This document shows positions 5,271-63,818 of a stretch of DNA of 64,000 bases, piece by piece (position 1 is the first letter of the stretch; the number at the start of each line of letters is the position of its first letter). The position numbers and the translations under genes were made by a program. The notes beneath the pieces were generated by a model. That model saw only the letters and a list, made by a program, of their open reading frames with translations, was not told the DNA's origin and ran no database searches. The DNA is taken from positions 1 through 64,000 of the IMG/VR virus record IMGVR_UViG_3300032282_002415; one strand, given 5' to 3'. This DNA is from a virus.

Positions 5271-5485
5271 AAGCTAGATTGCGCAAAGACCTACGAGAAG
5301 TTGGAACTCTTATCCCCACTATTATTCCTGATGGTGGTTGGCTTGGAGAGGGCGATATAGATACCGCCGAATATATTGGCTATATTGAGAGTAGTAATGA
5401 AGAGTACAAAGGGCTTGAATTATTGCTGGTTGATACTCAGCTTATTGCCGTGTATTCAATAGACCTAGAAGTAACTAAGGAGTGA
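5267..5485 (+). CDS. Small hypothetical protein, 72 aa
   Basis: The start overlaps the preceding stop (ATGA). The product begins with a basic segment (KARLRKDLREVG) and continues as an alternating hydrophobic/acidic beta-rich sequence. No cysteines or catalytic residues stand out. It lies directly upstream of the small HTH gene. No family is recognised. Confidence 0.6.
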   Translation: MKARLRKDLREVGTLIPTIIPDGGWLGEGDIDTAEYIGYIESSNEEYKGLELLLVDTQLIAVYSIDLEVTKE

Positions 5486-5487
5486 GT

Positions 5488-5655
5488 ATGGAAACCTTTT
5501 ACACCCCCGCAGAAATAGCAGAAGGCTTATCTGTAACGAGAGAGACGGTATATAAACTGATTAAAGAGAAAAAGCTAGAAGCCTACAAGTTTGGTGGCGC
5601 AGTACGAATATCAGAAGAGCAGTTGAGAGCCTGCTTGGAGGCTATAAATGATTAA
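5488..5655 (+). CDS. Excisionase-like helix-turn-helix DNA-binding protein, 55 aa
   Basis: The ORF opens at ATG 5488, just after an AAGGAGTGAGT ribosome-binding site, and closes at TAA 5653-5655. The sequence follows the excisionase/AlpA-like winged-HTH pattern. 'YTPAEIAEGLSVTRETVYKLIK' positions form the HTH (residues 5-26), and 'KLEAYKFGGAVRISEEQL' forms the wing (29-46). Members are recombination directionality factors or small transcriptional regulators. No integrase is visible, so a regulator is more likely. It overlaps the next gene by 8 bases. Confidence 0.8.
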   Translation: METFYTPAEIAEGLSVTRETVYKLIKEKKLEAYKFGGAVRISEEQLRACLEAIND

Positions 5656-5887
5656 GCCTATTGGCGCAACAGTACTGCTACGCTGGGCAGATATGCCCGA
5701 GGATTTAACCTTTGAGGATTATGTATCCTTTGGTACTTATGATGAAGATGAAGAGACAGACGGACAGGGTATAAGTGACTTAGTTGTCTTTGCTTACCTT
5801 GACGATTTACAGCACCTTGAACGGTGTCGCACAGGAAACGATTTTGATTGGCGTCTAATAGAAATTTTACAGGTACATTATGAGTAA
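5648..5887 (+). CDS. Small acidic hypothetical protein, 79 aa
   Basis: ATG 5648 lies inside the end of the HTH gene and follows a TTGGAGG ribosome-binding site. The protein is rich in Asp/Glu (DEDEETD near residue 35) with hydrophobic strands on either side. Coupling to the HTH gene suggests co-expression. No family is recognised. Confidence 0.6.
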   Translation: MIKPIGATVLLRWADMPEDLTFEDYVSFGTYDEDEETDGQGISDLVVFAYLDDLQHLERCRTGNDFDWRLIEILQVHYE

Positions 5888-6062
5888 ATATTCAGAGATA
5901 CAGGCAGATAAAGAGACAGCTATTTTTATTTCACAAGTTGAGAGAGTGAGAGAGTTGCTTATACGCAAGAACGCTGAGGATTTAATAGATATGTTAATCG
6001 GCGGATTAGAAAACGGAACACTTTACGCTTCACTACCAGCCTCACTAAACGGGAGAAAATAA
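5880..6062 (+). CDS. Small helical hypothetical protein, 60 aa
   Basis: It starts within the last codons of the previous gene and ends directly before the protease gene. The sequence is amphipathic helix throughout (EIQADKETAIFISQVERVRELL). The final codons contain a GGGAGAAAATAA ribosome-binding site used by the protease gene. The function is unknown. Confidence 0.6.
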   Translation: MSKYSEIQADKETAIFISQVERVRELLIRKNAEDLIDMLIGGLENGTLYASLPASLNGRK

Positions 6063-6956
6063 ATGAAGAGAGTTATAGTAGTAATAAGCTTAGTACTAGC
6101 AGGACTAACACCTGCTCATGCTGACACAGCCCCGACCTTAGTTTTAATTGACACAGGTGTTAATACTAAGTTATTTAGTAATATCGTACATGAGGTCTGT
6201 GCGATAGAGAGTGGCGCAGGTATCTGCCCTAACAAGAAAGCCTTTATGGAAGGCACAGGCTCAGCTAATCTACCTACCACTACTAACGCTACCTTTAGTC
6301 ACGGTACTCAGATGTTGAGTATCATTACTAAGGTTAGTCCAAGCGCAAATGTTATACCTATCAGAATTGTGGGCATGACAGATAAAGGCAATCCATACCT
6401 ATACTCATTAGACAGCGTTAAGACCGCATTAGATTGGGTAGTTGCTAACCGAGTTAAGTTCAACATCTCTGTAGTTAGTTTAGCTCAAGGAAAAATCTTT
6501 GCTGGTTGCCGTATGCCCGCAGGCATGGCAGAAGATTTAGCTGTACTCAAAACAAACAATGTTCAAGTAATAGCCTCAACGGGCAACGACAGTAACAGAA
6601 CCTCTGTATTCTCCCCTGCCTGTTCTCCTGATGTAATCTCAGTAGGAGCAACGGATAACCCAGCGCAAAAAGCAGGTGTAGCATGGAACAAGACAGACAA
6701 GCCATACATAGCTCGATACAGCAACGGCAACGCACAGACTACGCTCTATGCCAATGGTCGCTGGTTTGTAACTAACTTAGACGGCAGTACTAAGTTTATG
6801 GTTGGCACATCTAACGCCACAGCTTCAATAGCAAGTTGGGTGTTCTCTCACAAATTAAGTGATTGGAACTCAACATATGCTAACCTAATCAGTAACGCAA
6901 CAGGCACAGCAAGTAACGAGTGGCTTACAGGTCGCTACCTATTTATTGAAAGTTAA
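6063..6956 (+). CDS. Secreted subtilisin-like serine protease (S8 family), 297 aa
   Basis: Residues 1-20 form a clear signal peptide: a basic start, a VIVVISLVLAGL core and an AHA cleavage site. The mature chain shows the S8 catalytic triad. Asp30 lies in LIDTG, His80 in FSHGT and Ser250 in GTSNATAS. Asn175 in STGND is the likely oxyanion residue. There is no propeptide between the signal and the catalytic Asp, and the chain is shorter than typical subtilases (about 270-380). Four or five cysteines could form disulphides in an exported protein. ATG 6063 follows GGGAGAAAATAA. It could degrade host surface proteins, process phage structural proteins outside the cell, or exclude competitors. The substrate is unknown. 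Confidence 0.85.
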   Translation: MKRVIVVISLVLAGLTPAHADTAPTLVLIDTGVNTKLFSNIVHEVCAIESGAGICPNKKAFMEGTGSANLPTTTNATFSHGTQMLSIITKVSPSANVIPIRIVGMTDKGNPYLYSLDSVKTALDWVVANRVKFNISVVSLAQGKIFAGCRMPAGMAEDLAVLKTNNVQVIASTGNDSNRTSVFSPACSPDVISVGATDNPAQKAGVAWNKTDKPYIARYSNGNAQTTLYANGRWFVTNLDGSTKFMVGTSNATASIASWVFSHKLSDWNSTYANLISNATGTASNEWLTGRYLFIES

Positions 6957-6989
6957 GCTAAACTACACAGACCTAAGAAGGAGATACAC

Positions 6990-7277
6990 ATGGCAAAGAA
7001 AGTAAACGCAGTATTTAAGGCAAGCGTTCAGTTGAACGCAGATAAAGGTGGCGGTTGGTTAGCCTCATATCAAGCTGGAGCAGTTGATACCGAAGGTAAC
7101 TCTATGGAAGTTATTGTGTACTCAGCATGGAAGAACGCCTCAGCAGCAAAGCGTTGGATTAAGGAGAGAGTTATATCTGAGACTCCGCGCAAATCTATTA
7201 AGTGGGAAGTTAAAGCCACTAGCAACGAAAAACCGTCACACTTTGCGGGTGAGTTAGCCTACAAGGTGGAAGCATGA
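6990..7277 (+). CDS. Small phage hypothetical protein, 95 aa
   Basis: ATG 6990 follows AAGAAGGAGATACAC, one of the strongest ribosome-binding sites in the window, so high expression is likely. The protein is basic at its start, has a beta-rich Gly/Ser/Ala middle (GGGWLASYQAG) and a basic helix (AAKRWIKERVI). It lies at the end of the plus-strand block. No family is recognised. Confidence 0.65.
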   Translation: MAKKVNAVFKASVQLNADKGGGWLASYQAGAVDTEGNSMEVIVYSAWKNASAAKRWIKERVISETPRKSIKWEVKATSNEKPSHFAGELAYKVEA

Positions 7278-7378
7278 GTGTAATTATCCCTAACCCCGAT
7301 TGGGGCACTATCGGAACTCCGAAGGGTAATGAAGACCTAGAAGAGTACGAGATTGAAGAAGAAGAAGAGTACGAGTAA
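7274..7378 (+). CDS. Tiny acidic protein, 34 aa
   Basis: ATG 7274 overlaps the previous TGA and the ORF ends at TAA 7376-7378, two bases before the terminator hairpin. The C-terminal half is nearly all Glu and Tyr. The coupled start and position before the terminator support a real gene. The function is unknown. Confidence 0.5.
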   Translation: MSVIIPNPDWGTIGTPKGNEDLEEYEIEEEEEYE

Positions 7379-7380
7379 TT

Positions 7381-7412
7381 AAAAAGCCCCAGCTAATTAG
7401 CTGGGGCTTTTT
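7381..7412. terminator. Bidirectional rho-independent terminator between convergent blocks
   Basis: The 32-base palindrome has a GCCCCAGCTA arm paired with TAGCTGGGGC and is flanked by A5 on the left and T5 on the right. It therefore works for both the plus-strand block ending at 7378 and the minus-strand ribonucleotide reductase ending at 7417. Confidence 0.92.
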
Positions 7413-7416
7413 AATT

Positions 7417-9450
7417 TTACTGATTATCTTTTATTAGTTTTACTTCACACGCGTCAGTTGTACAGTACGCCTCACCAACAGCGTCAGCAGCCATACCTTC
7501 ATAGACACCAGCAAAGTCAATAGGAAAGAGAGTCATCTTGTACTCTTCATATTCTTCTGCGTTAATCTGAGTGTAGGGCATCTGCGGATAAACATGGTTG
7601 CCCGAAGGTAAGAACGAAACAGTTTTTAATTGCCCATCGTACATATGGAGAGATGTACCAACATCTTTGCTCTCGGTCTCAGGGTCAAAAGAGATAGTTA
7701 CAGAGACAGAGTTATCAGACCAGTATCGCTGAGCTGTAGCAGCTAAAGCCATCTTTTCATAGATAGAGACTTCTTTCTCAGAGCGCACAGCGTTAGACTC
7801 AACAGGGAAGAACACTACTGAAGTAGTTTTAGGTGACTCACTCGCAGCTTCGACTCGGTACTGTGCCATCTTAAAGAGAGGAAGCATAGGGTCAGAGTTA
7901 GCAAAGCGAATAGCACGAAGGAAGTGCTTACCACCAACGGGCCAATGAACTCCTGGGCTCTCACCAGCTAAGATACTTACTGTGCCTGATGGTTTAACAG
8001 TTGTCATCTTGATTGACTCACGGATACCAAGCCACTCTGAGTAAGACTTATCATAAGAGAGAATAGTTGAGTAACCTTCATCCATCCACTTACGGAGAAC
8101 TGGTAGCCCTTTATTATCTGCGAAATTTGCCACGCCCGAAATTGATGTACCAATACGGCGGTTACGCTGCATGATGGCGTTAGTCTCTTCCCAGTGAGTA
8201 GGCAAGAGAGTAACAGTTTTAGCGTAGAGGTAAGCAAACTTGAGAGTGCGCTTGAAGTCATCAAGAGAGTCATGTCTATTAAGATAAGTTTCAACAAGAG
8301 TACAACACTCAAAGCTTTCAAGAGATTGTTCAGCGCAAGGGTTGTAGCCAGCAATACGCCAGTCCTTGTTGTTCTCAGGGTCAGCAAGTCGCCCGTACTT
8401 ACGAGACACATCCATCCAGATAACTCCTGGCTCACCGTTGCGAGCAATTCCATCTACAATTGCGGAGAGGTCATCTCCTACATTTACAGATACAGAGTTG
8501 TTAGACATCCAAGCCCAACCTGGACTTGCTGGGTCATAAGAGTTGCGCTCTGGGAACTTCTCAGCGTTTTTTAGGTTGAGAAAGTTCTCATCATCTAAGC
8601 GACCCATCAACAACTCAGCTGAGCGGCGAACATTACCGCTTACTACACAGACTCCAATTAGGTTGCCGATGTCAGCAATATCTACACGACTTAGCTTCTC
8701 TCCAGCACGACCACCAAAGATAGAGTGGATGTAGTTATGAAGCTTTAGAAGCGGTTCATGTCCCGCTGCTGTTCCTCCAAATGTCTTGATTGGTTCACCC
8801 GCTGGGCGGATTTCTTTGTAATCAAATACTGGAGCCTTTGTATCTGGCTTGAGGTAGGAATTGATGAGGGAGGCTGTTGACTCAACCCAGCCTTCTCTGG
8901 TGTCGGGGATGACATATGTTTCTCCTTGCTGTGGTTCATAGATAGTGAATTCTTTATCGGCGCCTTTATCATCAAAGCCCACACCCACGCCAAGCATGGA
9001 GGCTTCCATAAGGAAGGCAAAGGGTTTTGCTGGGTCGGTCTTTGTCATAGACCCAGTTGATACAAACGCGCAATTTTGTAGGGCAGCTGAGTTCTTTTGC
9101 TCATTAACTAAGGGCGTTCCCATTACCCACAGACCTCTACCTGGCGGTGTCCACTTTAACTGGAACAAACGGTCAAATGCTTCCTTAGCTGAGGCTTGAG
9201 CTTTGGCATCGTTCCAAGGTAGTCGGTTGGATTTGGCGTGGTCTTTTTGAAGGGAGTACATGCCGTTGATAACACGCTCACATACATCTACCCAAGTTTC
9301 TTTAGTTCCATCAGCTTTTAAACGTGAGTAGGTTCTAAGAAAGGTAATCTCTCCAACTGAATTGCCTGCCGCATCTTGATATCCCCACGGAACTTTCTTA
9401 TCTCTATAAGCGGTAAGAAATTCTTCTGCCAAACGAAACGACAAAGCCAT
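7417..9450 (-). CDS. nrdJ: Adenosylcobalamin-dependent (class II) ribonucleotide reductase, 677 aa
   Basis: The enzyme reduces ribonucleotides to deoxyribonucleotides by a B12-generated thiyl radical. The NPCAE motif (Asn370, Cys372, Glu374), the following ECC (382-383) and Cys127 in NCAFVST match the active site of monomeric Lactobacillus-type triphosphate reductases. The C-terminal pair Cys663-x4-Cys668 matches the re-reducing cysteines of that type. ATG 9450 follows AGCAGGAT; a longer 711-aa frame starts upstream but adds 34 poorly folded residues. It is followed by the 7381-7412 terminator. No cobalamin synthesis genes or clear cobalamin riboswitch are seen, so the host must supply B12. 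Confidence 0.93.
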   Translation of the reverse strand: MALSFRLAEEFLTAYRDKKVPWGYQDAAGNSVGEITFLRTYSRLKADGTKETWVDVCERVINGMYSLQKDHAKSNRLPWNDAKAQASAKEAFDRLFQLKWTPPGRGLWVMGTPLVNEQKNSAALQNCAFVSTGSMTKTDPAKPFAFLMEASMLGVGVGFDDKGADKEFTIYEPQQGETYVIPDTREGWVESTASLINSYLKPDTKAPVFDYKEIRPAGEPIKTFGGTAAGHEPLLKLHNYIHSIFGGRAGEKLSRVDIADIGNLIGVCVVSGNVRRSAELLMGRLDDENFLNLKNAEKFPERNSYDPASPGWAWMSNNSVSVNVGDDLSAIVDGIARNGEPGVIWMDVSRKYGRLADPENNKDWRIAGYNPCAEQSLESFECCTLVETYLNRHDSLDDFKRTLKFAYLYAKTVTLLPTHWEETNAIMQRNRRIGTSISGVANFADNKGLPVLRKWMDEGYSTILSYDKSYSEWLGIRESIKMTTVKPSGTVSILAGESPGVHWPVGGKHFLRAIRFANSDPMLPLFKMAQYRVEAASESPKTTSVVFFPVESNAVRSEKEVSIYEKMALAATAQRYWSDNSVSVTISFDPETESKDVGTSLHMYDGQLKTVSFLPSGNHVYPQMPYTQINAEEYEEYKMTLFPIDFAGVYEGMAADAVGEAYCTTDACEVKLIKDNQ

Positions 9451-9597
9451 GTAAATCCTGCTTTCTTTATTGCTCCTGATGGGGAGAGGTTGATAGTGTA
9501 GCAAACCTGACCCTAACCTACAGGGGCTGCGATGTCTAACTCTAGGAGACACACCGTTTCATACAATAAGACTGACTCTTATCGCATAAGAAAAAAA
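9451..9597 (-). promoter_or_regulatory. Intergenic region upstream of nrdJ
   Basis: This 147-base gap is large for the minus-strand block. It holds the near-palindrome CTTATCGCATAAG (9578-9590), which recurs with one mismatch at 1715-1727, and a TACACT -10-like element near 9500. I see no conserved B12 box, so a cobalamin riboswitch is not supported. It probably contains a promoter for nrdJ. Confidence 0.3.
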
Positions 9598-11079
9598 CTA
9601 TTTATCTTCCAATGACTCACTAATAATTCGTGTTGTCTGTACTTCATTTAGACCATTATCAGGGAGTTCTTTTAACGCTTGAGCCCTATCTCCGAAGATA
9701 GAACTCAACACTCCAGAAGCTCCTTGGCGTTCAACTGTCATACGAATAAACTCTCTTGAGTCATCCAATTCTTTAGTTGTTTTAATCAATTTAAATAGTC
9801 GGTCAATCTCTTGCGAAACATTTGGGTCTGCGTATCCACCGTTCATTTCTTCCGCAAAACGCATGAAAGCAACGCGTTGTCCCTGCATTTCAATGATGGA
9901 GTTAATCAAACTCTTTAGTTGGTCTTTAGTCTTTACCTCTATTGGCAATTTAAATGCGCACATGCTTTGAGGCTTGAAAGCTGGGCAATTAGTGGCAACA
10001 AAACATGTATCGCATTGACGTAAACTTGTATCTTGGGACTGAACAACAGGCACATCTTTAATGACATCGTGACCCTCTTCATCCTGCTCAACTATGCTTT
10101 TATAGGCATATCCAAAGACGGGTAAATTGCCCATTTCCTGTGGATTTCGCGGCTCAACTTTCCGCATGTAACCCCCCTTGTTATCGCTTACGACAGGGGT
10201 ACTTTCCGCTTCTTCTTCACCATACATATCATCACTGTTATCGTATAACAAGTTATCGTCTGACTTACCGTTCATTGTATTGAGCCTCACTTCTAGTTGT
10301 TCAAACGACCATACTGCTAGACGACATACCTCTTGTGGGTCATCTTCCATAATTAAATCAAAACTTAAACCAGCTTTATCATAGACCGCTTTATGTCTAG
10401 GGCGAGCCTGCTCTTTCATCTTCTTTGGGTATCTAACTAATCTAGTTCCATCCCAAATTATTGTCTCACCGTGGAGCATTGGAGCTATCCACGATAAAGT
10501 GCTGGCTGACTCTACCTTCACCTGTCTTAAGTTGTCTGGCTTTGCCGTGTTGATGGCATGGAATCTAGTGCCATTACGGTTGGAGTAGGTCTTGGTTAAG
10601 GTGGCTAATTGGGTCTCATGTTCTATGTCCTCGCCCAAAATTCCAATATCAAGGTAGGAATCAACCATGCTTCTCAAGCCTTCAGCGCCTGTCTGAGCCT
10701 GCCAGATAGGTTGAAACTTGCCTGGAGGTACCTCTGACCAACAAGTACGTCTCTGGTTGGCTATAAATTCTGGACTTAGTAATGGGTGTGTTACTTCGTT
10801 AAAAGTGGTCAACCTGTCGATGTTATTAGCTACAAATTCCTCATACCCAACCGCAAAATCTTCCAATTCATTTGCGGTTAATTTCTCAACTTTGGGGACA
10901 CCAGCATGTACATAGACATGGGTGTCTGAACTAAAGTAGTTATCAATTAAATACGCCTTGGTCTTTGGCAGCCCGCGCTTTACTAGACGCCAATAGCTCA
11001 CACCAACGTGGTTGGCTGTAGTGGTCTCTAAAAGGGTACGGTTGCTAGGGACTTCAGCACCTAAGTAGATGATTTTCAA
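9598..11079 (-). CDS. Large conserved unknown protein with a cysteine cluster; possible TIM-barrel domain, 493 aa
   Basis: TTG 11079 is chosen because it overlaps the TGA of the upstream gene (TTGA), giving translational coupling; an in-frame start at 11142 lies deep in that gene. The N-terminal 260 residues show alternating strands and helices (IIYLGAEV, FQPIWQAQ, YLDIGILG, SWIAPMLHG), weakly reminiscent of the barrel of tRNA-guanine transglycosylase/DpdA proteins. Around residue 370 there is a Cys cluster (CDTC-x5-C-x8-C) that could hold zinc or Fe-S. The C-terminal 130 residues are helical. Function is not established, and no 7-deazaguanine synthesis genes are in the window. Confidence 0.6.
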   Translation of the reverse strand: MKIIYLGAEVPSNRTLLETTTANHVGVSYWRLVKRGLPKTKAYLIDNYFSSDTHVYVHAGVPKVEKLTANELEDFAVGYEEFVANNIDRLTTFNEVTHPLLSPEFIANQRRTCWSEVPPGKFQPIWQAQTGAEGLRSMVDSYLDIGILGEDIEHETQLATLTKTYSNRNGTRFHAINTAKPDNLRQVKVESASTLSWIAPMLHGETIIWDGTRLVRYPKKMKEQARPRHKAVYDKAGLSFDLIMEDDPQEVCRLAVWSFEQLEVRLNTMNGKSDDNLLYDNSDDMYGEEEAESTPVVSDNKGGYMRKVEPRNPQEMGNLPVFGYAYKSIVEQDEEGHDVIKDVPVVQSQDTSLRQCDTCFVATNCPAFKPQSMCAFKLPIEVKTKDQLKSLINSIIEMQGQRVAFMRFAEEMNGGYADPNVSQEIDRLFKLIKTTKELDDSREFIRMTVERQGASGVLSSIFGDRAQALKELPDNGLNEVQTTRIISESLEDK

Positions 11080-11531
11080 ACGCGAGGGTCTTCCCGCAGC
11101 ATCTCCATCTGCTTGTCCATCTCTTCTTCCACGGCTTTCCAACTACGAATACCTTGGCGTCCATCTGGGCGGAATTCTGGGCGCAAATAATTTGGGTGCA
11201 GGAACAGCAGAGTATCTATGCCTTCTTCAAGTAATTTCTTAGCTAAATCAACATTGGCGGTTACTACTACTTCAATCTTTCCTTGAGAACGGCAGTATTT
11301 AACCTGCTCAAACTCTAAATCATCTACAACTCCTGGAACGGAGTTATCTACAAGGTCATCAAAGTTATTTATCTTATGTTCTAGTAACCAGCGGTGTGAC
11401 TTCTCTTTATTCTCTGACAATAGAACTACACGCATATCTTCACTAAACATGCGGTATAGCGCCATACCAGAATAGATAGGCGCGTTAGTGGTGTGACGCA
11501 GTACGCCATCTACAAACATTACAATTGCCAC
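11076..11531 (-). CDS. Possible HAD-like protein, 151 aa
   Basis: The N-terminus IVMFVDGVL resembles HAD motif I (hhhhDxDGxL) but lacks the first nucleophilic Asp. A later RVVLLSENKEKSHRWLLEH resembles HAD motif II, and VVVTANVDLAKKLLEEGI the following repeat. It may be a degenerate phosphatase or a fold without catalysis. It is coupled to the gene at 9598-11079, and a nucleotidyltransferase-like gene lies just upstream. The function is unknown. Confidence 0.5.
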   Translation of the reverse strand: MAIVMFVDGVLRHTTNAPIYSGMALYRMFSEDMRVVLLSENKEKSHRWLLEHKINNFDDLVDNSVPGVVDDLEFEQVKYCRSQGKIEVVVTANVDLAKKLLEEGIDTLLFLHPNYLRPEFRPDGRQGIRSWKAVEEEMDKQMEMLREDPRV

Positions 11532-54065: not shown

Positions 54066-55319
54066 TTAGTTAAAACACTCAGGGTGTCTGATTACTAGCG
54101 CCTTATTGACCCATACTTGGTCTTCAATATTCCAGCCCCATTCGTATGAGGTGTCCACAAGGGCAAAGCCGCTGTCAAGCATAAACTGAGTAATCTTCTC
54201 AGTAGTAACGTGTTCATCGTGTACAGGGGTCCTTTCAGTCTCTAAGTGGAATAGGCGAACATCTTTGAGCCTATCTCCAAAACCTTGTAGGACTTGCCAG
54301 CTGTACCCTTCGGTATCTACCTTGATAACATCTATCTTATCGTTAAGCCCCAAATTTGATAAGAGGGTATCCATACGAATAGATGGCACCGTTACCTTCT
54401 GTATTTTATCCGCATAGTACTCTGGGGCGGGGCTGACGGATTTATCTTTATTAAAGACAGAGGAAGTACCAGAAGCCTCTTTATCCTTGCCATTAACAAT
54501 ATGAAATTCAGTTTGTCCGTTTTCATGGGTAATAGCACTGTAGATAGAGGTCATCCAAGGGTACTTAGTACGAGTAACTGAAATAGCGGAAGCATTAGCG
54601 TCAATAGCAATTACCTTAGTACTGTTTAATTTCTTATAAAGGTAATACGCATCATCACCATCTCTGGTACCAATGTCAATAATTACTGGGGCATCACTAT
54701 CAAAGTGCTTGCGGAAGTTAAGTACTACGGGTTCTAGTGGGTCGATGTACTCTCTGGTCTCAAATAACTTTAAGTTATTGATAATGGCAACTCTATATCC
54801 GTGCGCAATATCTTTCTTTAACAGCTCTTGGAATATTTCCCAAGACTCATCTTTGCGCCCTACCCACCAACCAGTAACGGCTTTCTCAAAATTCAAGGCG
54901 TACTCGCCTGGGTAGTCCACCCAGATAGGAAGTGGGGTGGCTTTAATTTTTGTATACATCAAGCCTGTCTCAGAGAATGTATAGGCCTCTTGCCAACGCT
55001 TTGCTCGCTCACAGTATCGGGCCAAAAGGAACCACGCCTCTGGTCGAGCAGGAAGGTGCGCGACAGCCTTTAAGAATAAGTTATGTACAGTGCTTTCGCG
55101 GTTCTTTTGATGTTCAAAGCATTGCGCAGATTTAAGCAAAGACGCGTATACATATTCGGGGTGAGTATAAAACCCATATTCAGCTGTGCGTAGGTAGAAA
55201 GAAACAGCAGCGGCTGTCTGGCCCACTTTTTCATACTCAACAGCAATGTTAAAGCTAAGCACTGGATTAAAGGGGTCTTTAGATAGTTCAATGATTAGGT
55301 CGTCAATAGCCTTAAACAT
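54066..55319 (-). CDS. FkbM-type methyltransferase fused to TPR-like repeats, 417 aa
   Basis: ATG 55319 follows GAGGAGGC. Residues 1-190 are helical with TPR-like spacing (SFNIAVEYEKVGQTAAAVSFYLRTAE, WFLLARYCERAKRWQEA). The C-terminal domain carries the SAM site IIDIGTRDGDD (near 213-223) and the FkbM signature DVIKVDTEGYSWQVLQG. FkbM enzymes O-methylate sugars or other small molecules; here a phage glycan is a possible substrate. Confidence 0.82.
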   Translation of the reverse strand: MFKAIDDLIIELSKDPFNPVLSFNIAVEYEKVGQTAAAVSFYLRTAEYGFYTHPEYVYASLLKSAQCFEHQKNRESTVHNLFLKAVAHLPARPEAWFLLARYCERAKRWQEAYTFSETGLMYTKIKATPLPIWVDYPGEYALNFEKAVTGWWVGRKDESWEIFQELLKKDIAHGYRVAIINNLKLFETREYIDPLEPVVLNFRKHFDSDAPVIIDIGTRDGDDAYYLYKKLNSTKVIAIDANASAISVTRTKYPWMTSIYSAITHENGQTEFHIVNGKDKEASGTSSVFNKDKSVSPAPEYYADKIQKVTVPSIRMDTLLSNLGLNDKIDVIKVDTEGYSWQVLQGFGDRLKDVRLFHLETERTPVHDEHVTTEKITQFMLDSGFALVDTSYEWGWNIEDQVWVNKALVIRHPECFN

Positions 55320-56310
55320 TAAGTGCCTCCTCAATCATTTCATCTACAACGGTCTTAGGCACTTGAAGGATAAAAGCTGCGTTGTCTTGGAAACCAAATG
55401 ATATTAATAGGTCGCCCTCGTACTCAGCGGCCCCTGCGCAGAATTCAATCTGCCCATCTAAGAACGCCCAGTTAGTTGGGGATATTCCTACCAACACAAA
55501 CTTGTCATCCCACACGCATAGACGGTGGCGGTAAGTGCCGTTCTTCTGTTTCATATAGTTTTTAAATAGAACTACTTCGTGGGTAATAGCAATGTAGTAC
55601 TCTCCCCACTTAATTAACTGGGAGCCACCACGCTGGTCAGCGTTAACTACTTTTCCTGGGGTTACTTGAACTTGTTCACACTTAGGCTCAGTAGGGTCAG
55701 CCTTTACTAATTCAGTTGGAGAAGTCCATTTAATGTAATGAAATGGCTTATCAAGAACTGGCATCCAGTTCTTCTCACAGTAAGAGGACTCATCTATTGG
55801 GGCTGGAATACGGATACGAGAGACTTCTTTAGCTGTCCAAGCTTTCTTGTCAATCTCAAGTTCTGAAAGCTCCATACGGCCTTGACCGTTGGTAGTGGTA
55901 TCTCTACGCACACCAGTGCCGTAGTACTTACCGTCCCACTTAACTAGCCGAGCATCTTCTTCGCCTACAAATGTCCAGATAGGCTTTACATCTAACTTGG
56001 TAGTATCAATTAAAGTGTGGTTAACAATGTTTAAGTCTTTATCTAAACGGCATAGATAATTGGCGGTTACTAACCGCTGGTCTTCCTCTGGATGTAGGTA
56101 GGATAACGGGCCCCAAATACTAGGGAATCGTTGGTCATTCTCAGAGTGGTAGAGCGTGTAGTTAATATGGCGCAAAATACATAACAAGTCACCATCATCA
56201 TCTATAAAGATAGAGGGGTTCATTAACCCAGTTCCACCAGTATCAGCAGCTGGAATAATGAGCGGCTTTAATTTTCCACCGTTTTGTACCGATTTTTGTA
56301 CCAAGTTCAT
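55312..56310 (-). CDS. GH130/GH43-like five-bladed beta-propeller protein, 332 aa
   Basis: The segments GTGLMNPSIFIDDDGD, GEEDARLVKWDGKYYGTG, GGSQLIKWGEYYIAITHE and FCAGAAEYEGDLLISFGFQD are spaced as in five-bladed beta-propeller glycosidase/phosphorylase families (GH43, GH130). These act on mannosides or related glycans by phosphorolysis or hydrolysis. Catalytic Asp/Glu placement is plausible but not proved. Part of the sugar island. Confidence 0.65.
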   Translation of the reverse strand: MNLVQKSVQNGGKLKPLIIPAADTGGTGLMNPSIFIDDDGDLLCILRHINYTLYHSENDQRFPSIWGPLSYLHPEEDQRLVTANYLCRLDKDLNIVNHTLIDTTKLDVKPIWTFVGEEDARLVKWDGKYYGTGVRRDTTTNGQGRMELSELEIDKKAWTAKEVSRIRIPAPIDESSYCEKNWMPVLDKPFHYIKWTSPTELVKADPTEPKCEQVQVTPGKVVNADQRGGSQLIKWGEYYIAITHEVVLFKNYMKQKNGTYRHRLCVWDDKFVLVGISPTNWAFLDGQIEFCAGAAEYEGDLLISFGFQDNAAFILQVPKTVVDEMIEEALNV

Positions 56311-56317
56311 GCGGTTA

Positions 56318-57121
56318 CTATACCAGTTCAGAAGAGACTATTTCCAAAAAAGAAAACACAGGGGCCCAATTTAATCTCTTTAAATTGTCTATTGTAGGAT
56401 AAATAGTCTTATCTTCTACGTTTCCAAACACATGGTTAATACTGACCCCGTTCTTTTTATACTCTGCAATGACTTCAAGGACTGAGTGTTGCGTATTAGA
56501 AAATACATCAGTCAAGAGCGGGGATTTAGAGGTTAGCGCGTATTCCAGTGCGCAGAGATTAGCGGCAGCTATATCTAAAACATGTATGTAGTCGCGTGTA
56601 GTTTTTGGGCTATTAACCGTAAAAGTTTGATTTTTACTATAGGCAGCGTTTAAAATAGCAAAGATGTTTTGACCAGTCTCGTCTACTATTCCCTCCGCTT
56701 TGCCTCCCACATTAAAATACCTAAGCACAACGGAGGACGCTACCTTTGAAATAATGCGTTCTTCTATTAGTTTACTTTTAGCGTAGGGGTTAGTTGGTTC
56801 GTATATTGACGCAGAAGAGGCAAACACAACTGGTAAGTTAAAGAGTTTACATAGAATAGCCACAGAGACCGTAGACGCAACGTTATTCCAGTAGTAGGCC
56901 CAGGGGCGTTTTTTAGACTCACTGATGCTCTTTTTAGCTGATAGGTGGATAATTCCTACAGGCTTTAAAGCATATATAAGGGCCCCAAGTTTAAAGATGT
57001 TCTCCGTAGATATGCCTGTTTTTTTATCGGTAAGGATAGGCAGGTAACCCTGTTCTTCTAATACTCTTGCCGTGGCTTTACCGATGTACCCTAGGCCTCC
57101 AGTAACAAGAACGGGTTTCAT
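56318..57121 (-). CDS. NAD-dependent sugar epimerase/dehydratase (GalE-like), 267 aa
   Basis: ATG 57121 is chosen because the Rossmann motif VTGGLGYIGKAT begins within ten residues; longer frames add unrelated sequence. The YxxxK catalytic pair lies in PYAKSK, with the Ser of SSASIY before it. DYIHVLDIAAANL is also typical. The chain is shorter than usual GalE (about 340), so the C-terminal substrate region may be trimmed. It probably makes a nucleotide sugar. Confidence 0.85.
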   Translation of the reverse strand: MKPVLVTGGLGYIGKATARVLEEQGYLPILTDKKTGISTENIFKLGALIYALKPVGIIHLSAKKSISESKKRPWAYYWNNVASTVSVAILCKLFNLPVVFASSASIYEPTNPYAKSKLIEERIISKVASSVVLRYFNVGGKAEGIVDETGQNIFAILNAAYSKNQTFTVNSPKTTRDYIHVLDIAAANLCALEYALTSKSPLLTDVFSNTQHSVLEVIAEYKKNGVSINHVFGNVEDKTIYPTIDNLKRLNWAPVFSFLEIVSSELV

Positions 57122-57139
57122 AAGGTGTATCATAGAGGC

Positions 57140-57283
57140 ATGAGCCCAAGATATTTTGCTAAAGCCCATGAAAACAGATGGTACAAAACGGCTCATTATG
57201 TAGAGACTGAAGAAGCAAAATTAGAACAAAAAGTTGAATCAACTGTGGCTTATCTTTGGAGGATGCTTTGGCGGAAGAGATAA
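57140..57283 (+). CDS. Small basic protein on the opposite strand, 47 aa
   Basis: ATG 57140 follows AGAGGC and the ORF ends at TAA 57281-57283, overlapping the next plus-strand gene by 16 bases. The chain is helical and basic (YFAKAHENRWYK, AKLEQKVESTVAYLWRMLWRKR). It and its neighbour are the only plus-strand genes between 7.4 and 64 kb. The function is unknown. Confidence 0.5.
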   Translation: MSPRYFAKAHENRWYKTAHYVETEEAKLEQKVESTVAYLWRMLWRKR

Positions 57284-57726
57284 ACCTACTTGCCATTTTA
57301 AACTCTAAATCTTGTGACGGCTGTACTAAATGTTGCGAGGGTTACCTAACCGCTAATATTAAGGGTCACAATATGGGCTCAGGAAACCCGTGCCCGTTTG
57401 TTATTAAAGATGTTGGTTGCGGTGAATACGCTACTCGCCCACAGAACCCGTGTGTATCTTTTGAGTGTGAATGGCGACGGAACCCTTATTTTGAAGAATG
57501 GCTGAGCCCAAATAACTCTAATGTAATTTTTACACGACAAGTTAAAGGGGCGTTTGAATACCTACAGATAGCTGAAGCTGGTAAGCCTTTAGAGCAAAAA
57601 ATTATTAATTGGGCAATTAGCTACGCTGAAAAAAATAAATTAAATTTAATTTGGGCTGTAAACGGTATAAGACACGCGGTAGGCGCAATTGAGTTTGTAG
57701 AGACAATGCGCAATGAGGCCCCTTAG
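57268..57726 (+). CDS. YkgJ-type cysteine cluster protein, 152 aa
   Basis: TTG 57268 is preferred because GGAGG lies five bases upstream; an in-frame TTG at 57256 is also possible. The CDGCTKCC motif, then NPCPFV, GCGEY and NPCVSFECEW match the YkgJ/UPF0153 family, which binds zinc or an iron-sulphur cluster. The family is often near oxygenases or modification genes. The role is unknown. It converges with the minus-strand gene at 57734. Confidence 0.75.
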   Translation: MAEEINLLAILNSKSCDGCTKCCEGYLTANIKGHNMGSGNPCPFVIKDVGCGEYATRPQNPCVSFECEWRRNPYFEEWLSPNNSNVIFTRQVKGAFEYLQIAEAGKPLEQKIINWAISYAEKNKLNLIWAVNGIRHAVGAIEFVETMRNEAP

Positions 57727-57946: not shown

Positions 57947-58552
57947 TTAGATTCTACGTGTCATTGTAGCAAGACTATGTATCACACCTGGGCTAAAGCC
58001 TGCTGGCATATCGTTCATCCAGCTTACCAAAATAAACTTTTCCCCCTCAGTGACTGGTAGAGCCGCATGCAGGTAGGCGTAATTAGCTGGAAATACCACT
58101 ATACAAGGCTCTTCTGGTTTAACTTTTATATCAAAGTGCTTAAAGAAGGTCTCTCCCCCAGAGTACTCAGTAGGGTTTAAGTACAACAAAATAGATGTAG
58201 TTCTGTACATAGACCAGCTAGAGTCTGCGTGAAAGTCGTACTTGTTACTAATTCCATAATGAAGCAGGTTAAACCCCTCATCTTGAGTGATAGGGGATTC
58301 ATACATTGAACCGTAGTGGTTTATAGCGGGCGTAGTTTGCTTACGAACTTCGTCATCCCAAAACGGAAGTATCTCTCTGAAAGAAAAACTTCTACTTGTA
58401 CGAATCTCTTGTTCGGGGTTTTCGTCATGCCCAACACTGCTTTTACTCCAAGTAGTACTTGGTATTTGCTTTGCCACTTCAACTATGCTTTTTGCTAAAT
58501 CTTTAGAAAAAGGATATTGGTTTACCCCAGTTGCTAATACAGTGTGCTCCAT
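57947..58552 (-). CDS. 2-oxoglutarate/Fe(II)-dependent prolyl hydroxylase-like dioxygenase, 201 aa
   Basis: The double-stranded beta-helix core shows HxD metal ligands His108 and Asp110 (YDFHADSSW), the distal His162 (AYLHAALP) and Lys172 as the likely 2-oxoglutarate-binding residue. YRTTSILLYLN and GGETFF are typical of prolyl 4-hydroxylase-like enzymes. It probably hydroxylates proline (or another residue) in a protein. It neighbours the Skp1-type GlcNAc-transferase and the repeated Pro-rich adhesin. Confidence 0.88.
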   Translation of the reverse strand: MEHTVLATGVNQYPFSKDLAKSIVEVAKQIPSTTWSKSSVGHDENPEQEIRTSRSFSFREILPFWDDEVRKQTTPAINHYGSMYESPITQDEGFNLLHYGISNKYDFHADSSWSMYRTTSILLYLNPTEYSGGETFFKHFDIKVKPEEPCIVVFPANYAYLHAALPVTEGEKFILVSWMNDMPAGFSPGVIHSLATMTRRI

Positions 58553-59283
58553 TAGTTGCCTTCTCTCTTAAATACTTTTCTAGTCCAAAGCTTTTTTTGA
58601 TAATGCTTATTTATAAACATAAGGTTTTCTTGCGTAGTTTGGTCTAACTGTTCATCTAACTTATTGTACTTAATTTTCCACTCTGACCTTACAAAAGGCA
58701 CCAATTGCGCAAGTGGGGTTCCCGCACTAATCTTAATATCTTTGGTAAAATCAACAGGTTTAATAGTAAACAACACGTTTAAAGGGCTATAAAACTTATC
58801 AGTGTCGATAATTCCTGGCATAACTTCAGTCTTTAGCTCAGGCCTATACGGAGGCTGTATCATCATTAAACTTGTTTTTTTACTGGTTTTCATTTTGTAC
58901 GGAAGGCCAACTTTTTCAACACCAAATTTTTGAGCAGACAAGTTGGCATCAGGGTAGTGACCTAATTGCAAGTGAGTGTGAGGGTGAAACAACCCTCTTT
59001 CAATCTCCATGTCATCTCTTCCAGTTTGTCTCATAAACAATTTATTGTTTTCATCTTTTGAAATTGTAACGTCTATAGGCCAAAACACAAGGTAACCTGA
59101 AGTCATTACATCGTAAATACCCCTACAGCTTTGAGCTGTTAAAAACTTAGAAGGCACCTCTACACTGTTAAGTTTTTTAAACCAATCAGGCAAGTGTTCA
59201 GCGGCTGGCGCTGGTTGGTATTCTACAAGATGGTGGTCTTTACCCAGTACAACTTGGTTAAAATCAATAGATAAAGTAAACAT
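58552..59283 (-). CDS. Unknown protein, paralogue of the next gene, 243 aa
   Basis: Shares a common plan with the gene at 59283: LPDWFK, then C-x4-DVMTSGYLVFWPIDV, a QPPYRPEL motif, PGIIDTDKF, ISAGTPLAQLVP and REW-type ends. The plan is reminiscent of DUF6065, but I cannot verify that name. It is coupled to the oxygenase (one-base overlap). Possibly an enzyme of modification or a binding protein. Confidence 0.65.
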   Translation of the reverse strand: MFTLSIDFNQVVLGKDHHLVEYQPAPAAEHLPDWFKKLNSVEVPSKFLTAQSCRGIYDVMTSGYLVFWPIDVTISKDENNKLFMRQTGRDDMEIERGLFHPHTHLQLGHYPDANLSAQKFGVEKVGLPYKMKTSKKTSLMMIQPPYRPELKTEVMPGIIDTDKFYSPLNVLFTIKPVDFTKDIKISAGTPLAQLVPFVRSEWKIKYNKLDEQLDQTTQENLMFINKHYQKKLWTRKVFKREGN

Positions 59284-60014
59284 TATTTATAAACCTTTCT
59301 GTTCCAAAAAGTACGCTTGTATCTATTTTCAAAATAAATAGAGTGTTCTTGAAGGTTTTTGTGCGAGGCGTCTACAGTAACAGATGAGTACAAGGCTTGC
59401 CACTCTTCTCTCTTTATAGGGATAACTTGAGCCATAGGAGTTCCCGCAGGAATTATGCCCTCAAAGCCTTTATTTAATAAAAAAGGAAACTGAACAGATA
59501 GCTTAAATTGGTCTGTGTCTACAATCCCAGGAAGAATTGTAAAAGGCAAGTCATCTCTGTGCATAGGTTGGGTGAATAAAACACTCCATCCTTCAGGAAC
59601 TTTTATTCTCCAAGGGTTGGACCATTTTAAAAGTTGAGGGGATTTATCCTCTGGCAGTTTTAAAGTCTCCGCTTGAGCTTTACTGTGCTCGTTTACCAGC
59701 TTATATTCAATAGGCCATTTAAATGCGGGTGACCCATCAATGTTTCTAGACACGTAAACATCACAAGGAAACAGTATTAGGTACCCAGCGCTCATGGCAT
59801 CAAAAACTGGCATACATTTTTTTATGGTACCCGAGGTACCTTCGGTATATTCTTTTTTACCATTTACATACGAAGGCATATCTTTGTACCATTGCGGTAA
59901 TAAAGTTACAGCAGGTATAGGTTTTGCTACAAAATCTAAACGTTCTTCATCACAAATAAACTCTATTGAGAGTGGGCGCGTACTTTTACGCTTGTGTTTC
60001 GTTCCTTTGAACAT
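59283..60014 (-). CDS. Unknown protein, paralogue of the previous gene, about 243 aa
   Basis: ATG 60014 or 60020 is favoured over a longer frame to 60101 lying inside the glycosyltransferase gene. Shared features with 58552-59283 include LPQWYK, KKCMPVFDAMSAGYLILFPCDV, QPMHRDDL, PGIVDTDQF and IPAGTPMAQVIPIKREEW. The two probably arose by tandem duplication. The conserved Asp/His/Cys/Trp residues suggest an enzyme rather than a scaffold; the family is unknown to me. Confidence 0.65.
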   Translation of the reverse strand: MFKGTKHKRKSTRPLSIEFICDEERLDFVAKPIPAVTLLPQWYKDMPSYVNGKKEYTEGTSGTIKKCMPVFDAMSAGYLILFPCDVYVSRNIDGSPAFKWPIEYKLVNEHSKAQAETLKLPEDKSPQLLKWSNPWRIKVPEGWSVLFTQPMHRDDLPFTILPGIVDTDQFKLSVQFPFLLNKGFEGIIPAGTPMAQVIPIKREEWQALYSSVTVDASHKNLQEHSIYFENRYKRTFWNRKVYK

Positions 60015-61218
60015 CTTCATACCAAGGGTAATCCGCATCGTACATCCAATCAATGTAGTCATTTGTAGAGTAAGTGTATAGCTCTGCTCCAAAATTAACA
60101 ACCTCGGTTATAGAGTTGTGAATCATTTTATTTACAGGAGAGTTAATACGCCTTGCTTCATAGTTAATTCCAGCAAAGTTCTCGTAATCAGAAAAGGAAC
60201 GTTTAGTGTTTTTTAACTTTTTAATTGGGTCAAACACCACTTTACAAGCGTCTTTAATTTGGTATTGCTCTGGGCCAAATACATCAGGGAAGTCATATTC
60301 TGGGTGTGGCCTATCTTGTCGGTTTAGTAAAACTTGACCTAAAGCCTCTGAATAAAAATGCATAATGCCTGTAACTCTTGGAACATAAAAATTATACCCT
60401 TTCATCCAACCAAGGATAGAATAATACTGTTCTTCTTCAAAAAACATAATTTTTCTATTTGCAGGCACATCTGTTACAAAAGAACCAGCTGTAAATATTT
60501 GCGCTGGGGAGACCGCAACAGATAAAGCAAGCGCCTCAAATCGAGTAAATATACGGTCACCGTGGCGTGGAAACCCAAATTCTTCAAAAAATCTTGCGGG
60601 CTTTAAACCGTGTCTAAAACAAGGTATGTTGTTATGACCGCGCCGTTGTCTAAAATAGTCTTCTTTTGATTTAGGGTTGTAGTAAGGATAATGACCTAAA
60701 ACGTTATCGTATGTGTTTGGGGCATATGAACGGGGGTAGCCTGTAATTAAAGGCTTTTCTTCACCCAAACCTTTTAAGATGTTATAGTGATGAATCAGCA
60801 AGTCATCCCAATACATATCAAAACGCATGTGAGCATCAAGTTGTAAATAAAAATCCTCTTTGTTGTAAAAAGAATTGGCATCGGCTCTTTGATTGCCTAA
60901 CCCAATATTTTTTACGTTGGCTTCTTTAACATCTAACTTAACTTGAGGGTTAGAGAGAAGCGGCTCCCACCATTTTTCATCCCCTTTTAAATATACCAAA
61001 CCTACGCCAAATACAAGTCTGTCTGGATTTTTTGCGTTTAAAATTGCGCTTTTTATTGTGTTTAAAACTTCAGGGTCTCTGTAACAAGGTATAGCAATAA
61101 AAATTGTTTTTGAATCCCGTAAGTTTTTAGACGTGTCAAAAACAGAGTCATAAAGGTACTCGGTATCAAGCTCTGTTAAAAAATCATTGTGGGCATTACG
61201 CATCATTCCATACGCCAT
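59986..61218 (-). CDS. GlcNAc-type glycosyltransferase, Skp1 GnT1-like family, 410 aa
   Basis: The GT-A-like start TIFIAIPCYRDPEVLNTIKSAI (38-59) and FYLQLDAHMRF with Asp128-x-His130 as the metal/sugar motif match the Pfam 'Glycosyltransferase (GlcNAc)' family. The eukaryotic founder of that family adds GlcNAc to hydroxyproline on Skp1. Further conserved parts are PCFRHGLKPARFF, SPAQIFTAGSFV and FFEEEQYYSILG. Likely cytoplasmic, using UDP-GlcNAc or a similar donor. Nearby oxygenase supports a hydroxylation-glycosylation pathway. Confidence 0.85.
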   Translation of the reverse strand: MAYGMMRNAHNDFLTELDTEYLYDSVFDTSKNLRDSKTIFIAIPCYRDPEVLNTIKSAILNAKNPDRLVFGVGLVYLKGDEKWWEPLLSNPQVKLDVKEANVKNIGLGNQRADANSFYNKEDFYLQLDAHMRFDMYWDDLLIHHYNILKGLGEEKPLITGYPRSYAPNTYDNVLGHYPYYNPKSKEDYFRQRRGHNNIPCFRHGLKPARFFEEFGFPRHGDRIFTRFEALALSVAVSPAQIFTAGSFVTDVPANRKIMFFEEEQYYSILGWMKGYNFYVPRVTGIMHFYSEALGQVLLNRQDRPHPEYDFPDVFGPEQYQIKDACKVVFDPIKKLKNTKRSFSDYENFAGINYEARRINSPVNKMIHNSITEVVNFGAELYTYSTNDYIDWMYDADYPWYEDVQRNETQA

Positions 61219-61227
61219 ATTTTACTC

Positions 61228-61893
61228 CTATACTATAAATTCCTTGGTAGTACCCGAAGCGTACCCTGAAACGTCTAAAGTTACATTGCTTGTTCTAGCT
61301 TTTTGAGAAACATAAATGATAACCCCACCACCTGTTACGGTGGTGTAGCCAGTCGCGTAGATTGTGCCATACCCAGTGACTGTACGAGCGCACACTACTA
61401 CTACGCCACCGCCGTAATTAGTGTTATTACCAGCGCCACCTCTCAAAAACAAAGGGGTTGTCTGGGAAGCGCTTAGCATGTAACCAGCCACAGCGTTCCT
61501 AGCCAAAGAGAAGTACTCCGCAGGGGAAGGTGCGGTAACCGTGTAGGAAGCGCTAGCGCCACCTAAAGCGTTAGTTACGGCAGCTAACCCACCTGAAGAA
61601 AGGCTACCTACAGCAGAAGACCCATTTTTTAACCCAATGCTAGTTGTAGATTGGTTGGCTGAGGCAGAAGATAAAGATAAAGAGTTACGAACAAAGACTC
61701 TGAAACCTGCGGTGTTTAAATGAACGCCATCAGAAATGGTTAAATTGTTGTAGTACATGTCTCTAGTAAGAGTTGTATTAGAAGAGACGGTCACATTGCC
61801 ATCGGCACCTGAGCCGTAAATCTCATCAGGAACGGCGGTAAAGCCCGCTACAGATGTAGAGGCTCCAATAGAAGAAATACCATACTTACCCAT
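61228..61893 (-). CDS. Glycine/serine-rich surface protein, 221 aa
   Basis: The module YGSGADGNVTVSSNTTLTRDMYYNNLTI (residues 26-53) and the following AGFRVFVRNSL are shared with the 636-aa neighbour. The remainder is Ser/Ala/Gly/Thr-rich beta structure (GGGVVVVCART, GGGVIIYVS). It is probably a fibre or adhesin component of the virion surface. Confidence 0.7.
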   Translation of the reverse strand: MGKYGISSIGASTSVAGFTAVPDEIYGSGADGNVTVSSNTTLTRDMYYNNLTISDGVHLNTAGFRVFVRNSLSLSSASANQSTTSIGLKNGSSAVGSLSSGGLAAVTNALGGASASYTVTAPSPAEYFSLARNAVAGYMLSASQTTPLFLRGGAGNNTNYGGGVVVVCARTVTGYGTIYATGYTTVTGGGVIIYVSQKARTSNVTLDVSGYASGTTKEFIV

Positions 61894-61907: not shown

Positions 61908-63818
61908 TTACGCTGCAACACTATGGTTAATAACTACAACGGTACCTGCCGAAGATGTTCCTGCTTGACCAGAGGCGCCCGCGGATGCACTTGTTGTCAC
62001 GCTACCAATTCCGCTGGTAGACATAACAAAGAGAACGCCGCCTCCGCCAACAAATCCATCAGAGCCAGTTACACCAGTTCCACCAGAAGTTGCTGTTCCC
62101 CCAGCCCCTCCCGCGCCACCTGGATATAAAACAGAGGCGTTGTAAGTAGCAACCGTTCCAGCTGAGTACGAATAAGTCAAAGCCGTTCCCGCTGTATAGG
62201 TATAAGTAGGCGCACTATTAGCGTTAGTAGTAGAGCCAGAACCAGCAGAATACGTATAAGTAGGTGAGCTGTTAGCGTTAGTAGTAGAGCCTGAACCAGC
62301 TACATAGTTATAACCAGCTACTGGATAAGTAGGTGAGCTGTTAGGGTTAGTAGTAGAGCCAGAACCAGCTGAGTATGTCCACTTAGGTGAGTTATTAGGA
62401 TTTGCTGTTGCTCCGCTACCTGGTGTAATAGTGTAAGTAGGTGAGTTATTAGGATTTGCGGTAGAACCCGAGCCTGGTGTGGAACCTGCTACAGGATAAG
62501 CAGCGGAATTATATGCTGCATTAAAAGTACCAGGGACATATTGTATTTTGCCCGCTGTAAAAGTATATGTAGGAGTGTTGTTAGTTGCGGTGGTTCCAGC
62601 AGAATAAGTATATGTAGGGGAGTTATAACCTTGGAAAGCGCCTGGGTTGTAACCACCAGTAGCGGTTCCAGCTACATAATTATAGTTTGTAGTAGGCGCA
62701 TTATTAGGGTTATTAGTTGAACCACTACCTGCAGAATATGTATAGGTAGGAGCATTGTTAGGGTTATTAGTAGAGCCAGAACCTGCTGTGTAAGTATAAG
62801 TAGGCGCATTGTTAGGGTTAGATGTAGCGCCAGAACCAGCTACATAGTTATAACCAGCTACTGGATAAGACGGTGAACTGTTTGGATTAGATGTAGCACC
62901 TGAACCTGCTGTGTAAGTATAGGTTGGAGCATTGTTAGGGTTAGATGTAGCGCCAGAGCCCGCTGTGTAAGTATAAGTTGGAGTGTTATTGCTAGCTACT
63001 GGAGAAACTGGAGAGTTATATGTAGCTGCGGTGCTATCTACAAATAGAGAAGGGGCGGGTGAGCCGTAAGTTCCTGCAGTTCCCGCGTTTCCCGCAGAGC
63101 CTACAGAACCAGCAGAACCAGCCACACCGTTTACTTGAATTTTTCCAGAGCCAACAATTGTCTTAGCAAGAACTACAACAACTCCACCGCCTGGGCCGCC
63201 AGCTCCTCCCGCGCCACCCGCGCCACCAGTTCCCGCAGTTCCAGGGGTTCCTGTTCCGCCTTTTCCTCCTGGAGAACCTACAGTATTAGCGTTAGGAGTA
63301 TAGTTACCGACAGCGCCAGCGCTTCCAGCATTTGCTGTTCCAGCATTTCCTGTTGCACCAGCAGCACCTGCTGAACCACCCGCGCCACCAGCAATAAAAC
63401 TTGGTGTAGCAGTAGTAGCATCAATATAAAGTGTTGAAATTAATTTTGTAATGTCATAATAAAATTCTTTACCAGCCGCTAATTGAGTTGCTGTTTTATC
63501 TCCAGAGTTTCCACCCAATGAGTTAACGGCGTTTGCGCCAACAGCAGAGCCGCCACCAACAGTGCCAATGGCGGTGGTGTTTGTTAAACGTGAAATTGTA
63601 GATGTAGCGGATGCAAAAGTAAGCGTGTCTTTAACAAAGATGCGGTACCCAGCTGGGTCCAAGTTAATTCCAGAGTTAATAGTGAGATTGTTGTACTGCA
63701 TATCTCTTGTCAAAGTTGTATTGACTGAGATAGTTACATCACCATCTGCTCCAGACCCGTATACAAACAACCCGCCTAAGCGGGTGTTTAATACGATAGG
63801 CGCGGATGCAACAGGCAT
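61908..63818 (-). CDS. Repetitive Pro/Asn/Tyr/Thr/Gly-rich adhesin-like protein, 636 aa
   Basis: After an N-terminal module shared with the previous gene, residues 145-265 are a Gly/Ala collagen-like low-complexity tract (GGAGGSAGAAGATGNAG). Then some 17-20 copies of an 18-residue unit (NPNNAPTYTYTAGSGST-like) follow between residues 280 and 575. Each unit contributes Asn-Pro, Pro-Thr, Tyr and Ser. The repeats are the best local candidate target for the hydroxylase/glycosyltransferase pair (inferred). Confidence 0.8.
   Translation of the reverse strand: MPVASAPIVLNTRLGGLFVYGSGADGDVTISVNTTLTRDMQYNNLTINSGINLDPAGYRIFVKDTLTFASATSTISRLTNTTAIGTVGGGSAVGANAVNSLGGNSGDKTATQLAAGKEFYYDITKLISTLYIDATTATPSFIAGGAGGSAGAAGATGNAGTANAGSAGAVGNYTPNANTVGSPGGKGGTGTPGTAGTGGAGGAGGAGGPGGGVVVVLAKTIVGSGKIQVNGVAGSAGSVGSAGNAGTAGTYGSPAPSLFVDSTAATYNSPVSPVASNNTPTYTYTAGSGATSNPNNAPTYTYTAGSGATSNPNSSPSYPVAGYNYVAGSGATSNPNNAPTYTYTAGSGSTNNPNNAPTYTYSAGSGSTNNPNNAPTTNYNYVAGTATGGYNPGAFQGYNSPTYTYSAGTTATNNTPTYTFTAGKIQYVPGTFNAAYNSAAYPVAGSTPGSGSTANPNNSPTYTITPGSGATANPNNSPKWTYSAGSGSTTNPNSSPTYPVAGYNYVAGSGSTTNANSSPTYTYSAGSGSTTNANSAPTYTYTAGTALTYSYSAGTVATYNASVLYPGGAGGAGGTATSGGTGVTGSDGFVGGGGVLFVMSTSGIGSVTTSASAGASGQAGTSSAGTVVVINHSVAA
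62150..63010. repeat. Imperfect 54-base tandem repeats coding the Pro-rich units
   Basis: Within the 636-aa gene the DNA carries imperfect copies of about 54 bases (18 codons), recognisable by recurring 'GTTAG-GTAG-GCC-GAACC-GC' and TATAAGTAGG strings. Some units are longer (GYNYVAG variants) or shortened. Copies drift in sequence, suggesting older duplication with occasional recombination rather than recent expansion. Confidence 0.65.

Follow-up and report, generated by a model that had tools for sequence, protein, structure and literature searches.

Hydroxyproline-linked glycans are known from protists, algae and plants, and to our knowledge hydroxyproline-glycosylation pathways of the kind considered here are known only from eukaryotes. 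The closest described system is the Skp1 pathway of Dictyostelium, Toxoplasma and Pythium, in which the prolyl 4-hydroxylase (P4H) PhyA is paired with GnT1, a glycosyltransferase (GT) of family GT60. This family is not confined to hydroxyproline, as members from Trypanosoma cruzi and Dictyostelium use Thr/Ser (PMC8724618, PMC6939170). The polypeptide alpha-GlcNAc-transferase of T. cruzi shares its CAZy family (GT60), and its action on protein, with the presumed phage enzyme described below, but differs from the role proposed for that enzyme in serving mucin-type O-glycosylation (Thr/Ser) and not hydroxyproline. Among viruses, the chlorovirus PBCV-1 also encodes a 2-oxoglutarate (2OG)-dependent P4H; that virus infects a eukaryotic alga, and no report coupling its P4H to a GT60 was found in the literature searched. 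Marine phages commonly carry genes for 2OG-Fe(II) oxygenases of the phrog_61 type (PMC12774648, PMC9301287), and genes resembling prolyl hydroxylases count among the frequent 'auxiliary' genes of phages from aquatic habitats. The viral use of such genes "remains cryptic" (PMC9301287), and no description of a phage P4H-GT60 pair was found among open-access papers.

The window, by which we mean the whole stretch of DNA that was analysed, covers 64,000 bases of a virus record that is 64,624 bases long. Its virus is described as a freshwater bacterial virus, a phage with baseplate, tail-sheath and replication genes. Two tail-fibre-like genes are followed directly, on the minus strand, by a four-gene unit encoding the GT, two paralogous proteins and the oxygenase. 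The features concerned are:

61908-63818, minus strand: Gly-rich tail-fibre-like protein, 636 aa, candidate substrate (motif counts and spacing, 54-bp tandem repeats, kept beside the GT gene in relatives)
61228-61893, minus strand: related tail-fibre-like protein, 221 aa, directly upstream of the GT gene (cluster c4, also in L003, L004, L006 and L007)
59986-61218, minus strand: GT60-type glycosyltransferase (PF11397), 410 aa, GT-A fold, DxH motif (Pfam, invariant residues, AF2)
59283-60020, minus strand: DUF6065-like paralogue 1, predicted dUTPase-like beta-clip fold (phrog_7084, AF2)
58552-59283, minus strand: DUF6065-like paralogue 2 (phrog_7084 and alignment to paralogue 1)
57947-58552, minus strand: 2OG/Fe(II) oxygenase of prolyl-4-hydroxylase type, 201 aa (PF13640, similarity to Bacillus P4Hs, conserved residues)
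56318-57196, minus strand: NAD-dependent nucleotide-sugar epimerase, possibly supplying a sugar donor (PF01370, E=8e-24; phrog_540)

Here 'DUF6065-like' serves as a label, since paralogue 1 scores 20.4 bits where the PF19541 cut-off is 26.6, and paralogue 2 gives no match. Adjacent ORFs of the four-gene unit overlap by 35, 1 and 1 nt. The interval from GT to oxygenase, put at about 1.4 kb in an earlier note on this DNA, measures 1433 bp and is occupied by the two paralogues. No further P4H-like or GT60-like ORFs were found within the window. An epimerase homologue lies near the cassette in L003, L004 and L006. Beside the epimerase gene, a 332-aa protein without significant Pfam or PHROG match (window 55312-56310) is kept in L003 and L004, and a small CxxCxxCC-cluster protein (phrog_9155) encoded on the opposite strand at 57256-57726 is conserved in relatives. 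The window also contains a ribonucleotide reductase and a queuine tRNA-ribosyltransferase-like gene (7417-11142).

Like the Skp1 pathway, the cassette pairs a P4H with a GT of the same family. It differs in residing in phages, next to tail genes, with dUTPase-fold partners and without Skp1, in an oxygenase that is nearest to Bacillus P4Hs, and in that its substrate and sugar are putative. The oxygenase matches PF13640 (2OG-FeII_Oxy_3) at E=8.5e-11, and its nearest solved relatives are the Bacillus P4Hs (E~1e-10). Its top four PDB matches all bear the name of prolyl hydroxylase (E 9e-11 to 4.5e-4), with lysyl hydroxylases following at E values of at least 0.007; among the former is 5c5t ('Prolyl 4-hydroxylase', E=4.5e-4), which we take to be the PBCV-1 enzyme. 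The HxD...H iron site and the 2OG-binding lysine (His108, Asp110, His162 and Lys172), reported as intact in the earlier note, were all confirmed and are invariant in three homologues. A lysine at the 2OG site marks P4Hs of the collagen/Bacillus type, including the Bacillus enzyme in the PDB comparison, and an arginine marks the oxygenases of the EGLN, PKHD and lysyl-hydroxylase types. Since the Skp1 hydroxylase of Dictyostelium is EGLN-like, the phage oxygenase is not its closest counterpart. Lysine is present in GT60-adjacent oxygenases throughout group D (13/13; viruses in which a flanking protein bears a crAss-like muzzle domain), in 7/8 of group A, to which the window belongs, and in the one bacterial fusion protein described below (1/1). 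The single arginine in group A is taken to come from a second, non-adjacent oxygenase of L042, a contig that carries the P4H of the window at 100% identity; this extra gene (L042 2304-2891) has the epimerase gene on one side and the 332-aa gene on the other, and is missing from the window. The window oxygenase is itself a phrog_61 member, unlike those phrog_61 oxygenases that are linked to DUF6065-like genes, where arginine occupies the site in 39/42 readable sequences and a canonical GT60 is mostly not found alongside.

The family of the GT, which the earlier note had suggested checking by profile, is upheld by a PF11397 match at E=1.6e-24 (87.5 bits against a Pfam cut-off of 21). Among 18 to 21 GT60 homologues there is no variation at D128-x-H130 (the metal-binding DxH), E262-E263 or H287. 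The AF2 model is partly confident (mean pLDDT 69, with residues 172-228 poor), and the best structural match of its core is to polypeptide GalNAc-transferases. The modelled core is consistent with a protein-directed enzyme, without pointing to a particular acceptor.

Four further viral lineages (L003, L004/L005, L006 and L007), with GTs that are 54-67% identical, share the gene order of the cassette (tail protein, tail protein, GT, paralogue, paralogue, oxygenase). A WhiB-like gene of L006, on our reading of it, points to an actinobacterial host. The synteny search proposed in the earlier note thus found the pair together, as the full cassette in these four and as pairs in crAss-like viruses. 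A GT profile search gave 39 viral loci, and 36 records were scored, of which 18 carry a true P4H-type oxygenase domain (the C-terminal region of phrog_61) and one more a fragment at the contig edge. Most of the P4H genes share the strand of the GT60 gene and are separated from it by 1-2 nt or by about 1.4 kb, and in group D it is a two-domain oxygenase that lies 1-2 nt upstream. The structural proteins flanking the group D pair contain [STA]P tracts of 100-120 residues. P4H is missing from about half of the phage records with GT60, as in groups B and C, where there is none in the record. Searches of 50,697 phage records by tblastn gave no matches with the GT of the window or of group D, and cultured phages were matched solely by GT60 queries of the group B and fusion types. 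In cultured XacN1 no P4H is annotated near the GT60, and in RAS14 the GT60 neighbours are all annotated 'hypothetical'. Two of the 20 GT60 records matching phrog_61 (G012 and G018) proved not to hold oxygenases: the L017 gene is a PLOD-type glycosyltransferase and that of L023 falls in the same gene cluster, and neither record entered the count. L017 lacks P4H, and its PLOD-type gene (PF25342, 11239-11931) immediately follows GT60 on the downstream side.

A different arrangement is seen in L032/L033, where the order is P4H, GDSL, HPAT, GT60, and in the divergent virus L051, where it is P4H, GDSL, HPAT (the GDSL assignment was made by Pfam for L032 only). The HPAT-like (PF23452) viral genes are:

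L032 9168-10001: HPAT-like gene
L050 8001-8831: HPAT-like gene
L051 3105-3938: HPAT-like gene

HPAT is the hydroxyproline O-arabinosyltransferase family, and these genes therefore offer an independent pointer to hydroxyproline; a viral HPAT query had no matches in the 50,697 phage records. A Gammaproteobacteria MAG, L130, encodes a single 1200-aa protein (4382-7984) that joins HPAT (E=4e-8), GT60 (E=2.6e-49) and P4H (E=5e-16). It aligns with phage GT60 at 37% identity over 317 columns and with phage P4H at 30% over 394 columns. A Ser/Thr/Pro-repeat gene (7988-8455) is convergent with the fusion gene, 3 nt away. This was the sole bacterial locus from the genome scan; GT60 is rare in Gammaproteobacteria (4/369 genomes). 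A P4H/GnT1 fusion in Pythium is cited in PMC8724618, through its ref. 121. In the GT60 tree the P4H-linked GTs occur in three places, requiring three label changes, at least two of them forced by well-supported branches; long branches make the exact placement unsure, and the three changes may be gains or losses. The P4H-GT60 pairing recurs in unrelated viruses and in one bacterium, and on these sequence comparisons, with counts that are drawn from related genomes, accident appears unlikely.

The best candidate for the substrate, we infer, is the adjacent Gly-rich tail protein. Its 636 residues include 11 P-[TSK]-Y motifs, often at a spacing of 18 residues (the motif count is 16 in L006 and 8 in L004), and its gene contains 54-bp tandem repeats; an example of the repeat peptide is NPNNAPTYTYTAGSGS. 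Its proline content is just 6.4%. The collagen-like tail proteins of L004/L006 were rejected as substrates of the P4H, as their GXY triplets are nearly Pro-free (9 Pro in 571 triplets); Thr is found at Y in 328/571. From these counts, the PTY repeats would be the better candidate if the target is proline, and the collagen-like repeats if it is threonine.

Enzyme families, active-site residues, operon structure, recurrent pairing, fusion and paralogue fold were read from sequence or models, and on these we propose a substrate, a sugar and an order of steps. The single best explanation, which we hold tentatively at a little short of an even chance, is that the module builds a hydroxyproline-linked glycan on virion parts. 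The 2OG/Fe(II) enzyme would first hydroxylate prolines, the likeliest being those within the P-[TSK]-Y repeats that the neighbouring tail-fibre protein contains. The GT60 would then move HexNAc from a UDP-sugar onto the hydroxyproline, as Skp1 GnT1 does, the UDP-sugar possibly being supplied by the phage epimerase, and the two dUTPase-fold proteins may assist the oxygenase in some manner. In favour of such a pathway are the PF11397 score, the kinship with Bacillus P4Hs, the four cassette relatives, the fusion, the tree, the P4H-type lysine and the [STA]P tracts; against it are the Thr/Ser-directed GT60s, the P4H-less groups B and C, the Thr-rich and Pro-poor collagen-like tails, the 6.4% proline of the candidate substrate and the kinship of the genomes. 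The earlier note had suggested a viral hydroxyproline-glycosylation pathway acting on virion proteins. Its enzyme families are supported, and their functional pairing appears likely (PF11397, recurrence, fusion, lysine), whereas the transfer of GlcNAc to hydroxyproline of virion proteins is something we still only infer, given Thr-directed GT60s and P4H-less phages.

The main rival, less probable but a real one, is that two parallel modifications are made to the fibres, with GT60 acting on Thr/Ser in mucin-type fashion (e.g. in Gly-X-Thr or PTY repeats) and the oxygenase independently on proline or another residue; the two genes would then be neighbours because both act on fibres. Thr-directed enzymes do exist within GT60 (PMC8724618, PMC6939170), and P4H is missing from many GT60 phages. 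Threonine is also very abundant in the fibres of relatives, as the Y positions above illustrate, and the fold predicted for the GT most resembles polypeptide GalNAc-transferases, which act on Thr/Ser. However, the HPAT-GT60-P4H fusion, the group D pairs 1-2 nt apart and the at least two forced label changes fit sequential steps better. It is much less probable that the module targets a host protein or host surface glycan, in takeover or exclusion, and not the virion. PHROGs does class such oxygenases and GTs as moron/host-takeover genes, and the known Skp1 pathway acts on a regulatory cytoplasmic protein (PMC8724618), but the cassette is always directly downstream of tail-fibre genes in group A and between structural genes in group D.

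If the hydroxyproline-glycan pathway is real, such glycans would also occur in phages and bacteria, which would bear on how phages adsorb and on where the eukaryotic pathways came from. A broader proposition, of which we are less confident than of the pathway itself, is that unrelated phage lineages make Hyp-linked glycoproteins in tail-fibre repeats (through GT60, and in some through HPAT), by bacterial/viral versions of the pathway in which the dUTPase-fold accessories are new. With a GT conserved as partner, a fusion that occurs in nature and a candidate substrate, the cryptic role of viral P4Hs becomes directly testable.

The two proteins between the enzymes were described in the earlier note as unknown paralogues; their paralogy and position were correctly recognised, but a dUTPase-like fold and a tie to oxygenases were missed. 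They are about 27% identical in alignment, and match phrog_7084 at E=2e-60 (paralogue 1) and E=4e-33 (paralogue 2). The AF2 model of paralogue 1 (pLDDT 93) finds only dUTPases as its top PDB matches (prob 1.00, TMt up to 0.73), from which a dUTPase-like fold is predicted for both. The paralogue profile matches dUTPase motif-3/4 stretches at E 0.3 or worse, and motif 3-/4-like stretches are retained (D168, D170, G193 and Q198). On motifs 1 to 4 the paralogues are not classed as dUTPases, as the motif 1-like stretch reads GY[IL] against the canonical GYD, and no canonical PRSS/PRSG motif 2 was seen in the paralogues. No papers on DUF6065 were found in the open-access literature. The family is widespread in viruses, and its link to oxygenases extends further than that of the GT: in viruses 37 P4H-like genes lie within 3 kb of DUF6065-like genes (over 293 kb of sequence), compared with 1 at a distance of 3-8 kb (over 250 kb), and the pairs are on the same strand in 25/25 viral loci, 15 of them overlapping or abutting. 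Although this linkage, mostly without canonical GT60, and the predicted fold could mean that the oxygenase and paralogues form one system (perhaps acting on a nucleotide or nucleotide-sugar, or as an enzyme-adaptor pair) beside which GT60 was accidentally inserted in this phage lineage, such an account is improbable, given the arginine type of most oxygenases at DUF6065 loci against lysine in the GT60-adjacent ones, and given that group D and the fusion combine GT60 and P4H with no DUF6065 present.

DUF6065-like genes are also found near tail genes of haloviruses (e.g. HF1 and HRTV-5), without an annotated oxygenase. GT60-like genes of about 270-295 aa beside DUF6065-like and oxygenase genes (L074, L077, L093, L099 and L061) are mostly under the PF11397 cut-off and were left uncounted. 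A block of DUF6065, GT60-like, oxygenase and oxygenase genes, in that order, recurs in L074, L077, L079, L081, L093, L099 and L102.
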